Origin: an uncultured Acidobacteriota bacterium
Lineage (GTDB): Bacteria > Acidobacteriota > Terriglobia > Terriglobales > Acidobacteriaceae
DNA: 64,000 nt
Assembly (NCBI GenBank): GCA_903832055.1
Contig: CAILAC010000013.1
Location: 186,001 to 250,000, forward strand
Direction of reading: 5' to 3'
How positions within the stretch are numbered: the stretch's first letter is position 1; each line of letters starts with the position of its first letter. The notes beneath the pieces were generated by a model that was not told the DNA's origin, ran no database searches, and saw only the letters and a program-made list of their open reading frames with translations. Shown piece by piece: positions 14,124-53,401 of the stretch. The position numbers were made by a program, and so were the translations under genes.

Positions 14124-14333
14124 ATGGAAGTCTTCGGCTTCGCAGCCCTCTTCGGCCTCATCCTCGGCTTTATGTTCGGGGTGGGCTGCGCTGCCGCGGT
14201 GATCTATACCGTCTACATGGGCGGCTACCGCAAAGCCATCGAAGAATCCTTAGCAGAGGTACAGCTTCCTCGTTACGTGCAAAACCTAGAAAAGATCACC
14301 AACAAAATGCAAAGAAGCTCTCAGCCAAAATGA
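14124..14333 (+). CDS. Small membrane protein
   Basis: A 69-residue protein with one N-terminal transmembrane segment rich in glycine (about residues 4-32) and a charged, cytoplasm-facing tail that may be helical. GGAGGG at 14109-14114 gives a well-spaced ribosome site for ATG 14124. It follows mqnE by 39 nt and is probably in the same transcript. I recognise no family, and the function is unknown. Confidence 0.6.
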   Translation: MEVFGFAALFGLILGFMFGVGCAAAVIYTVYMGGYRKAIEESLAEVQLPRYVQNLEKITNKMQRSSQPK

Positions 14334-14453
14334 GATAGGATTTGGAAGCTCTTCGCCGGGTAGGAAGGCAGCACTACCCGTCATCCCAGACCAACGTCCT
14401 GTTTTATCTCATTGGCTATACCTGACGTAATATAGACTTCTGTTGACACGTCG

Positions 14454-15395
14454 ATGCGCATTTTTGTTGCCGTAACAGACAATGATTGGTTCTCACTGCA
14501 TGCCTCTCAAAAGAAGGTAGAGGAGGTCAATTTTTGGCGCCCATCATCCGAAGCAACCTTTAAGGCACTAGCGCCTGGCGAGCTACTTCTTTTTAAGCTT
14601 CACTCTCCGGACAATTTCATTGCTGGTGGAGGGTTCTTTACTAAGTTTTTGCAACTCCCAGTGAACTTGGCTTGGGACACCTTCAAGCAATCAAACGGAG
14701 TTCGATCGTTGACTGAGTTGCGCGGAAAGATCGCAGATCTTCGTCGAATTCCAATTTCCTCGTCAGACAATCCGACAATCGGTTGCATCATGCTGGCAGA
14801 GCCTTTCTTTTGGCCCCGTGAAGCGTGGATACCGATACCAAATGATTTCAAATTAAATACCGTTCAAGGCAAAGGCTATGACTCAGAATCCGGGGCGGGA
14901 AGCGAGCTTTGGGGCTCCATAGTAGAAAGGCTCGAAACATTGACACCATCGAACTTTGAGCCTGGAACAGCAACCGTTGCTGCTATTGATTCAAAGGGAT
15001 TCGGTAAACCGCAGATCATATTACCGAGGCTGGGGCAAGGATTGTTTCGTGCGCTGGTTACCGACATGTACGACAAGCGTTGTTCAATTACTGGCGAGCG
15101 TACTTTGCCGGTGCTCGACGCTGCCCACATTAAGCCTTATTCTATTGTCCAGCGCCACGAGCTCTCGAATGGCCTACTAATGCGGAGTGATCTCCATCGG
15201 CTATTTGAAGGCGGTTATCTGACGGTTGATCCAGCCAACTACCGCGTTGTGGTGAGCCAGCGAATTAGGACAGAATTCGAAAATGGAAAAGAGTACTACC
15301 GTCTGGAGGGTCAAGAAGTTAGGGCCCCCCGAGAGTCCTGGGCAAAGCCAAGCATAGAGAATCTTGAGTTTCATGCTTACAGTATTTTTCGATAG
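14454..15395 (+). CDS. HNH endonuclease with an extra N-terminal domain (candidate modification-dependent nuclease)
   Basis: A 313-residue protein. Residues about 200-262 form an HNH domain of the HNH_2 type, with AAHIKPYS (His225), the NGLLMRSDLHRLFE block (Asn239, His248) and a Cys-Ser-Ile-Thr-Gly turn before it. Residues 1-150 (FVAVTDNDWFSLHASQ, LLLFKLHSPDNFIAGGGFF) resemble PUA/EVE-like modules that read modified bases in single-chain restriction enzymes; this likeness is inferred from pattern, not proven. The gene is visibly AT-richer than its neighbours, has a weak ribosome site and stands alone without a methyltransferase. That pattern fits horizontal acquisition and a type IV-like defence role. 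Confidence 0.7.
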   Translation: MRIFVAVTDNDWFSLHASQKKVEEVNFWRPSSEATFKALAPGELLLFKLHSPDNFIAGGGFFTKFLQLPVNLAWDTFKQSNGVRSLTELRGKIADLRRIPISSSDNPTIGCIMLAEPFFWPREAWIPIPNDFKLNTVQGKGYDSESGAGSELWGSIVERLETLTPSNFEPGTATVAAIDSKGFGKPQIILPRLGQGLFRALVTDMYDKRCSITGERTLPVLDAAHIKPYSIVQRHELSNGLLMRSDLHRLFEGGYLTVDPANYRVVVSQRIRTEFENGKEYYRLEGQEVRAPRESWAKPSIENLEFHAYSIFR

Positions 15396-15410
15396 AGATC
15401 GGAAGTTTTC

Positions 15411-15426
15411 TTTCCACAGGTGGAAA
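15411..15426. promoter_or_regulatory. Inverted repeat after the HNH gene
   Basis: TTTCCAC and GTGGAAA are separated by only two bases, 16 nt after the HNH stop. The loop is too short for a good terminator and there is no T-run, so a protein-binding site for the downstream gene is possible. Confidence 0.3.
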
Positions 15427-15480
15427 CCTTACTGACCCATTTTGAGCCGGAAATGGTTGCGACAAAGAAAGCGCAACTCT

Positions 15481-15503
15481 AGATCAATTTGATCAAATGA
15501 TCT
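15481..15503. promoter_or_regulatory. Extended palindrome, operator candidate upstream of the DUF5054 gene
   Basis: A perfect 12-bp palindrome ATTTGATCAAAT (15487-15498) is flanked by AGATC on the left and GATCT on the right, offset by one base. The symmetric core plus flanks resembles a dimeric repressor site, 73 nt before the DUF5054 start codon. Confidence 0.4.
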
Positions 15504-15576
15504 TCGAAGCGATTTGTCGACCGGCAAGCATCAAACGATGCCGCCATTCGCCACAGGGCGTTACACTAAATCGTCT

Positions 15577-17703
15577 ATGACGAAACTCATCTCTAATGAC
15601 AGCCAAATGCTGCGCCGCCGCCTGCTCCAATCCATGACTGCCCTCGGCGCCGGCCTCATGCTTGATTCGGTCTCCCCGTTCGCGGCGTTGCACGCCCAAT
15701 CACCGACCGTTCCCGACAGCCAGATCAAGCGTGTACTGGTCATGTTCAAGTGTCATTTTGATGCCGGGTTCATCGATACGCAGACCAACGTCGTCCATCG
15801 CTACTTCAGCGAATATTTCCCGGCTGCTATCCAGACCGCCAGCGATTTGCGCGCCCAGGGCGGCCACCGCTACGTCTGGACCACCGGTTCCTGGCTGCTG
15901 TACGAATACCTTGAGCAGGCCTCCCCGGAGGACCGCAAGCGCATGGAGCATGCCATTGCCGTCGGTGATATTGCCTGGCACGCACTGCCCTTTACCTGGC
16001 AATCGGAGATGCTCGACCCATCGATGATTGCCGGAGCCCTTGCTATTTCTCAGTCACTCGACCGCCGTTTTGGCCGCGTTACTACCGGCGCCAAGATGAC
16101 CGATGTACCCGGCCATACGCGCGGCCTCATAGCTCCGCTTGCGGCCCACGGAGTCCAGTTTCTCGACATCGGTGTCAACGATGCCAGCACCCCGGCAGAG
16201 CTGCCGCCGATCTTTTTGTGGAAGGACCCCACCGGCGCATCGCTGCCCGTCATGTACCACCCGGGCTACGGCAGCGTTACCCATATCCCCGGCTCAAATA
16301 TTGCGATTGCCATTGTTGTTGGAGACGATAATATCGGCCCGCACAAGCCTGCCGAGATCGCCAAAATCTATGCCAATCTCACCAGCCGCTTTCCCAGCGC
16401 GGAGATTGTGGCAGGCAGCCTCACCGATATTGCGAACGCCCTGGCGCCCTTCCGCAGCCATCTGCCCGTCGTCACCGGCGAAATCGGCGATACCTGGATT
16501 CACGGCATCGCCAGCGACCCGCTCAAGGTGGCGCGCTATCGCGAAGTGGCGCGACTCCGCCAATCCTGGATCAAGCAGGGCAAAATCCATGTTGGAGACG
16601 CAACCGATCTGGCGCTGCTCCGCCGTCTTCTGCTTGAGGTCGAGCACACCTGGGGAACAGACACCAAGACGTGGCTCGACTTTAACAACCTGAAGCCAGA
16701 TGACCTCGACAAGATGATTGCCACCAAGAACTACCAGGTGGTCCAGTTCAGCTGGAAGGAGAAGCGCCAGGACCTGCTGGATGGCATCGCCACGCTGCCT
16801 GAACCGCTCAAAATAGAGGCGCAGCAAGCCATCGACCGGCTTAAACCAGTTGAGCCGCGACTCTCTGCCAATGCTCTTCAACACCCAGCAGCAAAGGTGA
16901 TCGAGACTCCCCACTTTCTGCTTGGCATGGATGCTCAAACCGGGGCAATCACGCGCCTGCGCAACAAGCGCACAGGCCACGAATGGGCGAGCGCGACAAA
17001 CCCTCTCGCGCTTTTTGTATACCAGACCCTCTCGCAGGCTGACTACGACCAGTTCTTCAAGGATTACCTGAAGAGCAGTGAAGACTGGGCTTTTAAAGAT
17101 TTCGGCAAGCCCAACATCGACAAACTCGGCGCTGAGAGCCGTGAATGGCTTCCGACGCTCTCTGATTTGCAGGTTCAAGAAACCGCCGAAGGTCACAAAG
17201 TCCTTGCGAGCTTGCAGATTACCGGACTCTCGCCGGCGCAGGCTGCGATCGCATCGCCGCCGCAGAAAATCTACCTTGAGCTCTTCCTTCCGGCCAATGA
17301 GCCGGTGATTTACATCAATCTTTCATGCTTTCAAAAGCGAGCCAATCGCATGCCTGAGGCGCTCTGGCTCACGTTCAACCCAATCGCCAGTGCGAGCCAA
17401 GGGTGGAGCCTGGAAAAAGCAGGCCAATCGGTCTCTCCTTTTGATGTCGTGGCCTCTGGCAATCGGCACATGCATGCGCTTTCCACAGGCTTTCATTACA
17501 AGCAAGCAGGGAACTCGCTGGCTGTCGAAACAGTGGACGCGCCGCTGGTCGCCCTCGGAGAGCGAACCTCGCTCAGCTTCAAGAACGCCCAGCCCGACAT
17601 GAGCAAAGGAGTGCACTGCAACCTGTATAACAACTCGTGGGGCACCAACTACATCATGTGGTACGACGAAGACATGCGCTTCCGCTTTGTGCTGCGCGCA
17701 TGA
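15577..17703 (+). CDS. DUF5054 protein, GH38-like exported glycosidase candidate
   Basis: About 708 residues with a Tat-like leader (LRRRLLQSMTALGAG). The body matches the DUF5054 pattern of soil bacteria, related to family 38 alpha-mannosidases. It shows CHFDAGFIDTQTNV near the start of the mature protein (the His-x-Asp metal-ligand position), HALPFTWQSEML, KMTDVPGHTRG and GEIGDTWIHGIASDP. The C-terminal half is beta-rich like the GH38 sugar-binding region. The likely function is hydrolysis of an alpha-linked sugar in the periplasm, but substrate and activity are unproven. ATG 15577 is chosen; TTG 15514 is a possible longer start. A palindromic operator candidate lies just upstream. Confidence 0.7.
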   Translation: MTKLISNDSQMLRRRLLQSMTALGAGLMLDSVSPFAALHAQSPTVPDSQIKRVLVMFKCHFDAGFIDTQTNVVHRYFSEYFPAAIQTASDLRAQGGHRYVWTTGSWLLYEYLEQASPEDRKRMEHAIAVGDIAWHALPFTWQSEMLDPSMIAGALAISQSLDRRFGRVTTGAKMTDVPGHTRGLIAPLAAHGVQFLDIGVNDASTPAELPPIFLWKDPTGASLPVMYHPGYGSVTHIPGSNIAIAIVVGDDNIGPHKPAEIAKIYANLTSRFPSAEIVAGSLTDIANALAPFRSHLPVVTGEIGDTWIHGIASDPLKVARYREVARLRQSWIKQGKIHVGDATDLALLRRLLLEVEHTWGTDTKTWLDFNNLKPDDLDKMIATKNYQVVQFSWKEKRQDLLDGIATLPEPLKIEAQQAIDRLKPVEPRLSANALQHPAAKVIETPHFLLGMDAQTGAITRLRNKRTGHEWASATNPLALFVYQTLSQADYDQFFKDYLKSSEDWAFKDFGKPNIDKLGAESREWLPTLSDLQVQETAEGHKVLASLQITGLSPAQAAIASPPQKIYLELFLPANEPVIYINLSCFQKRANRMPEALWLTFNPIASASQGWSLEKAGQSVSPFDVVASGNRHMHALSTGFHYKQAGNSLAVETVDAPLVALGERTSLSFKNAQPDMSKGVHCNLYNNSWGTNYIMWYDEDMRFRFVLRA

Positions 17704-52743: not shown

Positions 52744-52988
52744 CAGCGATTACGCGCCCATGCAAGTGCTTCCTCGATGGCTTGGTCGATGACTTCCTGA
52801 GGTACATTTTTGTTTTGTTCCTTCGCCGCTCTGGCTGTTTCAAGAAAGATGCTCTTACGGACAGCTTCTTCAACGAATTTGGAGAGGTCACCTTTGCGGC
52901 CACCACCGGAGTCGGCGAGGTGCTGGCGGAGAGCTTGGTCGGTTTCTGCCGAGACGACTAGATTCCAGCGGGTTGCGTTGGTGGCCAT
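52743..52988 (-). CDS. Ribbon-helix-helix antitoxin
   Basis: An 81-residue protein with an N-terminal ribbon-helix-helix DNA-binding region (WNLVVSAETDQALRQHLAD, GDLSKFVEEAVRKSIF) and an acidic, helical C terminus that should wrap the PIN toxin. ATG 52988 has GGAG six bases upstream; an earlier ATG at 53000 is also in frame. The stop overlaps the toxin start by one base. RHH antitoxins normally repress their own promoter, probably just upstream near 53000-53040. Confidence 0.83.
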   Translation of the reverse strand: MATNATRWNLVVSAETDQALRQHLADSGGGRKGDLSKFVEEAVRKSIFLETARAAKEQNKNVPQEVIDQAIEEALAWARNR

Positions 52989-53206
52989 TTCGTACTCCAT
53001 TACTCCTATAAAGCAAGTATACAGATATGCAGATAAACACCCAACGCGACCTCAAATTGCTGACAACGCTATTGAATTAAGGCCTTGGGCTTGCTTGAAT
53101 CTACGTCGATTCGATCGGGCTCGCATTCCAAGGTTTAACTTTGATGCTTTGATCGCTTTCCCGCCCGTTCGCCTTTTCAGATTTGTTGCGCCAAATCAAG
53201 GAATTT

Positions 53207-53401
53207 CTACCCGATATTTGACCTTATGCGGATTATCTTCTGTACCAAGCCCACAAGGCTGGCAATGAATAGCGAAAGTATAAGAAGCAGAAACGATGCT
53301 GCGAATATGTATGCCGTGATTTCTTTCCCTGTCGCTTCAGGGTTCCAGTGAATGTCTGCGCCTACACTTCCAAGCAAAAAGCCGCTGATCATCAACAGCA
53401 A
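53207..53401 (-). CDS. Possible small membrane protein
   Basis: A 64-residue open frame with two hydrophobic segments (MLLMISGFLLGSVGADI and AYIFAASFLLLILSLFIASL), between the toxin-antitoxin pair and pgk. The composition is typical of a real membrane protein, but the ribosome site is poor and I recognise no relatives. The surrounding 53001-53602 holds nothing else convincing. It may be a remnant of inserted DNA. Confidence 0.35.
   Translation of the reverse strand: MLLMISGFLLGSVGADIHWNPEATGKEITAYIFAASFLLLILSLFIASLVGLVQKIIRIRSNIG

Follow-up and report, generated by a model that had tools for sequence, protein, structure and literature searches.

The stretch of DNA analysed here (the window, 64,000 nucleotides from an uncultured Acidobacteriota bacterium) encodes an HNH nuclease (Table 1) that probably acts alone as a modification-dependent (type IV-like) restriction endonuclease. 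As such it would probably protect the cell, as a single protein, from viruses whose DNA is chemically altered. The analysis shows the two-domain anatomy of the protein, a predicted PUA-superfamily fold of its N-terminal domain, its HNH residues and the kinship of its HNH half to that of VcaM4I; it also shows that the gene is patchily distributed, that its site is empty in a close relative and that several relatives have restriction-type neighbours. In the mechanism that we infer, the N-terminal domain would flip a modified base of foreign DNA, the target mark, into a conserved aromatic pocket, and the C-terminal HNH domain would then cleave the DNA close by; H225 would activate the water and H248 and E252 would bind a metal ion, with phage defence as the outcome. 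A partner methyltransferase would not be needed, as in VcaM4I, because the mark would not occur in the relevant context in host DNA, and the gene could therefore move singly.

Table 1. Coordinates of the nuclease gene, its parts and its insertion segment within the window
Feature	Position	Strand	Description
HNH nuclease gene	14454..15395	+	313 aa, ATG start, stop codon counted in
N-terminal sensor-like domain, residues 1-153	14454..14912	+	predicted PUA-superfamily fold; no Pfam family
N-F-W-R-P, residues 26-30	14529..14543	+	N26, F27, W28 and P30 identical in 36/36 rows
Linker	14892..15023	+	helix 147-162 and low-confidence stretch (block pLDDT 61-69, residues 161-190)
HNH_2 nuclease core, residues 210-259	15081..15230	+	H225 15126-15128, N239 15168-15170, H248 15195-15197, E252 15207-15209
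Segment with no detected counterpart in relative G011	14334..15553		insert and its small flanks

The nuclease half and the N-terminal domain

The HNH core that the initial annotation had called clear (His225, Asn239, His248) is borne out by a match to Pfam HNH_2 (PF13391; E 3e-10, 40.2 bits, cut-off 21) and by the invariance of all three residues in 36/36 aligned rows, the window row counted. The other 35 rows come from 48 loci encoding relatives, after removal of fragments, of copies that are broken or lie at a contig end, and of matches to the HNH half alone. Position 252 is D in 34/36 rows and E in 2/36, the window protein being one of the latter. Residues 173-312 also fit two HNH models of PADLOC (E 4.2e-18 and 7.5e-16). 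VcaM4I (6yex) is the only solved structure with significant sequence relatedness, which lies in the HNH half (E 3.8e-9, or 9.9e-14 with the family profile), and in the alignment the active-site places correspond to H224, N241, D250 and D254 of VcaM4I.

The N-terminus had been described as PUA/EVE-like. The AlphaFold model of residues 1-153 has a mean pLDDT of 94.9 and a pTM of 0.87, and a predicted strand at 139-143 follows the domain core. In a Foldseek search with this model, AF2351 (E 2.0e-5), which we take to be an ASCH protein, and then ZmASCH (5.6e-5) came out on top, nine chains of these two proteins falling between E 2e-5 and 1.7e-4. The best VIA match is likewise the Zymomonas ASCH protein ZmASCH (5guq; Z 12.9 over 130 residues at 2.8 Å), followed by AF2351 (10.8), TTHA0113 (9.1), the McrB sensor (8.4), EVE 2eve (8.3), YqfB (8.2), THYN1 (8.0) and, at 7.5 each, the VcaM4I EVE domain, YTHDC2 and the TRIP4 ASCH domain, where rows no more than 1 Z apart count as ties and a Z below 8 alone may reflect just a common arrangement. 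Among the 50 VIA entries listed, those that could be assigned all belong to the PUA superfamily (ASCH, EVE, YTH, McrB sensor, YqfB), and absence of an entry from the list rules out nothing. From the Foldseek and VIA match lists, residues 1-153 are therefore predicted to adopt a PUA-superfamily fold, so that the comparison with EVE, YTH and ASCH folds proposed by the initial annotation returned PUA-superfamily matches with ZmASCH at their head, and not a non-DNA-binding fold. ZmASCH scores about 4.5 Z above EVE, yet YqfB and the TRIP4 ASCH domain are level with EVE and YTH; the domain thus appears nearest to one ASCH protein, and the term ASCH-like would draw mainly on ZmASCH and AF2351.

Sequence comparison gave no link to either family. 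Pfam over 28 N-domains yielded just three single matches, at E 0.058 or worse, and none to EVE (PF01878) or ASCH (PF04266). Comparison of the N-domain profile by hhalign gave a probability of 1.1% against 17 EVE domains, 0.6% against the EVE domain of a VcaM4I homologue and 0.1% against 8 ASCH domains, the last alignment being small and poor, and a PDB search with the same profile produced no match up to E 10. EVE was set aside as the exact label, since ZmASCH scores so much higher and neither Pfam nor profile comparison provides a sequence link; the PUA part of the earlier description stands. The sensor is a family that Pfam does not hold.

Twelve N-domain residues are invariant across the 36 rows (T8, W12, N26, F27, W28, P30, F47, G58, W74, F77, N81 and G82), a set that fits a putative conserved aromatic pocket. 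By position, the N-F-W-R-P motif resembles W22-x-P24 of VcaM4I, in which, as described in passages of PMC7897488, the P24 side chain and the W22 carbonyl contact the flipped base, and the two may be equivalent. By the order of the elements, W28-x-P30 and a PGE turn would likewise resemble the W-x-P and PGD of VcaM4I-type proteins.

The N-domain also occurs as a separate module: in genome G143 it stands alone in a 172-codon frame with no HNH (L063 1456-1971, - strand), between genes that by eye resemble prmC and asnS. In genome G375 the first half of the domain is continued in frame by a C-terminal part that appears unrelated (L191 979-1725, - strand, 249 aa), either a fusion or a decayed copy.

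Taken whole, the protein combines a PUA-superfamily domain and an HNH domain in one chain, as in VcaM4I-type enzymes, according to the predicted structure and the profiles. Foldseek with the full model places two VcaM4I chains on top (E 7.5e-10 and 3.9e-9). VIA aligns 232 residues with VcaM4I at Z 13.0 and an rmsd of 16.6 Å, a value that suggests another relative arrangement of the two domains than in VcaM4I. TagI (6ghs) aligns at Z 13.8 over 107 residues (2.4 Å, in the model range 72-313), this part presumably being the HNH domain.

Insertion site, relatives and neighbours

The gene differs in composition from its neighbours, as had been claimed: its GC of 0.488 is the lowest among the 43 non-overlapping ORFs in the window that reach 150 aa (mean GC 0.577, sd 0.028), and its GC3 is the second lowest, so that the epithet AT-rich holds relative to the window ORFs, for a gene of 49% GC. 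Elsewhere in the window, a 152-aa ORF at 52810-53265 (GC 0.49, no Pfam match) has the lowest GC3 of the 43 and is possibly another insert.

In the genus mate G011 the same flanking genes are 66 nt apart, as against 1243 nt in the window (measured to the ATG at 15577). The order of MqnE, a small 69-aa gene and a DUF5054 gene is kept, and MqnE of G011 is 92-94% identical to that of the window. The window gene is therefore read as inserted, in agreement with the initial description of a lone gene with its own small flanking regions. The full gene is found in 2/15 genus genomes, the window's own counted (2/8 of those at least 90% complete); the second carrier, G001, holds a 69% identical copy on another contig, not adjoining MqnE. 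The presence/absence comparison that had been suggested thus gave an empty site and a second copy elsewhere, and not a gene of normal composition at one place in all relatives. The setting is one of housekeeping genes (MqnE, the small gene, the DUF5054 protein, an acyl-CoA dehydrogenase, ABC/MlaE transport genes and others). As initially noted, no methyltransferase adjoins the gene: a Pfam scan of 11 flanking genes, two with no Pfam match of any kind, found no such domain, and no second HNH or MazG-like gene was seen among the same 11.

Six short peptides, used to scan 84,980 species genomes by a method that misses distant relatives, returned 77 stretches; relatives are encoded in 48 of these. 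The 36 aligned rows fall into 11 phylum-level groups (e.g. Acidobacteriota, Chloroflexota, Bacteroidota, Pseudomonadota and Bacillota), within which relatives are patchy; they are also present on plasmids and in viral-type contigs. Profile matches occur in 31/200 family genomes; in 11/200 they span the model, most of the other 20 covering the HNH half only. Among 396 genomes of the phylum, 43 have N-domain matches, and in 38 the match covers at least 140 of the 153 positions. Of 72,556 plasmid records 1253 match, four covering at least 80% (one of these in two pieces), whereas 0/50,697 phage records cover 80% of the query, nine showing partial HNH-side matches. In a viral collection, six of the 16 loci found span the protein, two of which (L100 and L101) have alike surroundings. 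GC is lower than in the surroundings by at least 0.014 in 10 of 14 relatives, about equal in three (L002, L005, L008) and higher in one (L134). A tree of the 36 rows groups them by phylum and places the window row next to Occallatibacter (Acidobacteriaceae), so that a recent transfer from another phylum is not supported.

Twenty neighbours of relatives were picked, mainly large co-directional genes, and are thus a non-random sample. Restriction- or nuclease-type genes among them encode type I R-like subunits (L006, L024), Mrr (L042), a NucS-like protein (L005), an HNH protein (L098) and a helicase with ResIII (L008), with a weak, sub-cut-off HNH match in L002; AbiEii and HipA also occur. In Mesorhizobium amorphae (L139) a Type ISP methylase-specificity protein is encoded immediately upstream of the homologue, with a gap of 113 bases. 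Many of the 20 are housekeeping genes or have no assignment; those outside the restriction and nuclease types include UvrB, ParA, a molybdopterin-binding enzyme, a mannosyltransferase and a peptidase, and some have no match. Occallatibacter savannae (L002 6001-9353) carries a 74% identical relative and, about 1.4 kb away, a VcaM4I homologue (6yex E 2.5e-88), and hence two HNH enzymes with different sensors within 3.4 kb. The window genome has no full-length VcaM4I homologue, the sole match being the HNH part of the window gene.

An all-against-all comparison of neighbours (two per side, 49 loci) returned one MazG-like cluster of four and otherwise pairs, not all of which were identified, and no fixed partner gene, methyltransferase included, was found among the relatives' neighbours. 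The proposed pattern of a single-protein restriction system is consistent with a solitary, inserted and patchily distributed gene of VcaM4I-like architecture, but a few relatives do adjoin restriction-modification genes. At eight loci counted as distinct, a second HNH protein stands in tandem (L098; L079 and L080 of one genus; L089, L090, L094, L095 and L185 of another), and such a gene also adjoins the partial copy L191. This second protein has a different N-terminus, with the motif GIFKPRQM (L098 4965-6852; L180, L184, L185; L079, L080, L090, L094); together with the family member it possibly makes up a two-nuclease cassette. Genes for MazG-like nucleotide pyrophosphohydrolases lie within 150 bases of 7/83 distinct relatives from several phyla (L028 1092-1421, L043 6936-7265, L022, L023, L025, L032, L083), 46 of the 83 having at least 1.4 kb on both sides.

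Candidate marks and alternative functions

Genes for C5 methyltransferases are present in 15/38 carriers and 142/358 non-carriers of the phylum (Fisher p = 1; 16/43 when the five partial N-domain matches otherwise left out of the carrier count, G375, G543, G346, G469 and G413, are included), and those for N6/N4 methyltransferases in 28/38 and 264/358 (cross-counted by hand), so that neither class is depleted in carriers. The host genome itself has one C5 methyltransferase match (a 378-aa frame) and two N6/N4 matches. With such genes as common in carriers and present in the host, the protein appears unlikely to be a blanket cutter of C5 or N6/N4 marks, and, their frequency being equal in carriers and non-carriers, genomic avoidance gave no signal from which a target base could be deduced. 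Modified cytosine, the mark named in the phage test that the initial annotation proposed, finds no support here as the target. The sequence context of the mark could reconcile host methyltransferase genes with modification-dependent cutting.

A more specific proposal is rather doubtful. The N-domain would represent an undescribed ASCH-like class of DNA-mark readers, flipping a base with a mark other than plain 5mC (e.g. N4- or N6-modified bases or phage hypermodification), and would be the first ASCH-type restriction sensor, while the MazG-like proteins encoded beside some relatives would purge the nucleotide pool of the attacked base and so keep it out of host DNA. ASCH domains have been proposed as readers of 6mA, without proof, and passages of PMC11037411 treat DNA modified-base reading by these domains as still to be confirmed. 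A compact single-protein nuclease of similar fold offers a direct test, as the base recognised would be evident from the substrate that triggers cutting, and if an unusual mark is read, the protein would also be a reagent with which to map it.

It is unlikely that the enzyme reads unmodified sequence, either with host methylation as the safeguard or as the nuclease component of distinct restriction-modification systems. The placement of the M. amorphae homologue and of the L006 and L024 relatives, which come after the type I R-like subunits, would agree with such a role, as would the N6/N4 methyltransferase genes of carriers, but the latter are at the background rate, the neighbour comparison and the window flanks supply no recurrent methyltransferase, and the predicted sensor fold is that of modified-base readers.

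An abortive-type defence nuclease, in which sensing of RNA, of a modified nucleotide or of a damaged base by the N-domain would allow the HNH domain to cut host or invader DNA, is quite unlikely. It draws on ZmASCH, described in passages of PMC5615036 as a ribonuclease that binds and cuts single-stranded RNA, on YqfB, which is described as acting on N4-acetylcytidine, and on the MazG-like genes and the lone N-domain of L063; the architecture and the HNH kin nevertheless indicate VcaM4I-type DNA enzymes, and MazG was not seen beside 76/83 relatives, a set in which 46 have 1.4 kb or more on both sides. HNH genes are often selfish, and the window gene is inserted and patchy, but a homing-type or mobile-element gene kept by its own mobility, with no defence role, is very improbable, since 14240-15640 contains no direct or inverted repeats of at least 12 bases, the insert carries no further ORF that reaches 150 aa, the N-domain aromatics are invariant across phyla, and several relatives have restriction-type neighbours.

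A modification-dependent restriction endonuclease thus appears the best explanation. Against it stands the closest predicted N-domain fold, that of an RNA-cutting enzyme and not of a reader of DNA marks, as do the lack of EVE or ASCH sequence kinship, the undepleted methyltransferase genes of carriers, the many housekeeping or unassigned genes among the 20 picked neighbours of relatives, the housekeeping surroundings of the window gene itself, and the PUA domain of HhiV4I, which in passages of PMC11037411 appears not to be the sensor of that enzyme.

Comparison with known systems

The design of a sensor and an HNH domain in one protein was already known; new here is a single-protein, probably restrictive HNH enzyme whose sensor family is absent from Pfam. 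The listings, abstracts and passages returned by a literature search contained no recognised description of this HNH family. The phosphorothioate-dependent HNH enzymes (NCBIfam NF045808) align with the C-terminal HNH part (42.4 bits, residues 197-313), but this is far under the family cut-off of 180 bits, and membership is not supported. TagI is likewise a single protein with a close structural match, whereas its sensor is described, in the passages available, as SRA and the sequences are weakly alike (E 0.52 in a search with the family profile). Among ASCH proteins, ZmASCH provides the best fold match of residues 1-153 and YqfB a lower one, yet the window protein has no Pfam ASCH match and is fused to an HNH domain, while ZmASCH and YqfB are reported as enzymes alone. 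The predicted EVE-nuclease fusions, as described in parts of PMC7641849, share the joining of a base-reader domain and a nuclease in one chain and a predicted role in type IV restriction; their sensor is EVE, which that of the window protein is not by Pfam or profile. VcaM4I, according to passages of PMC7897488, is a proven EVE-HNH enzyme that cuts 5mC and 5hmC DNA, its sensor flipping either base into a pocket, with H224, D250 and D254 required for full cutting. It differs from the window protein, whose N-domain has no detectable sequence kinship to EVE and fits the VcaM4I EVE fold less well than that of ZmASCH, and which has H248 and E252 at the places of D250 and D254. The two nevertheless share a length of about 310 aa, an N-terminal PUA-superfamily domain followed by HNH, sequence kinship of the HNH halves and the corresponding H, N and two metal-ligand places.
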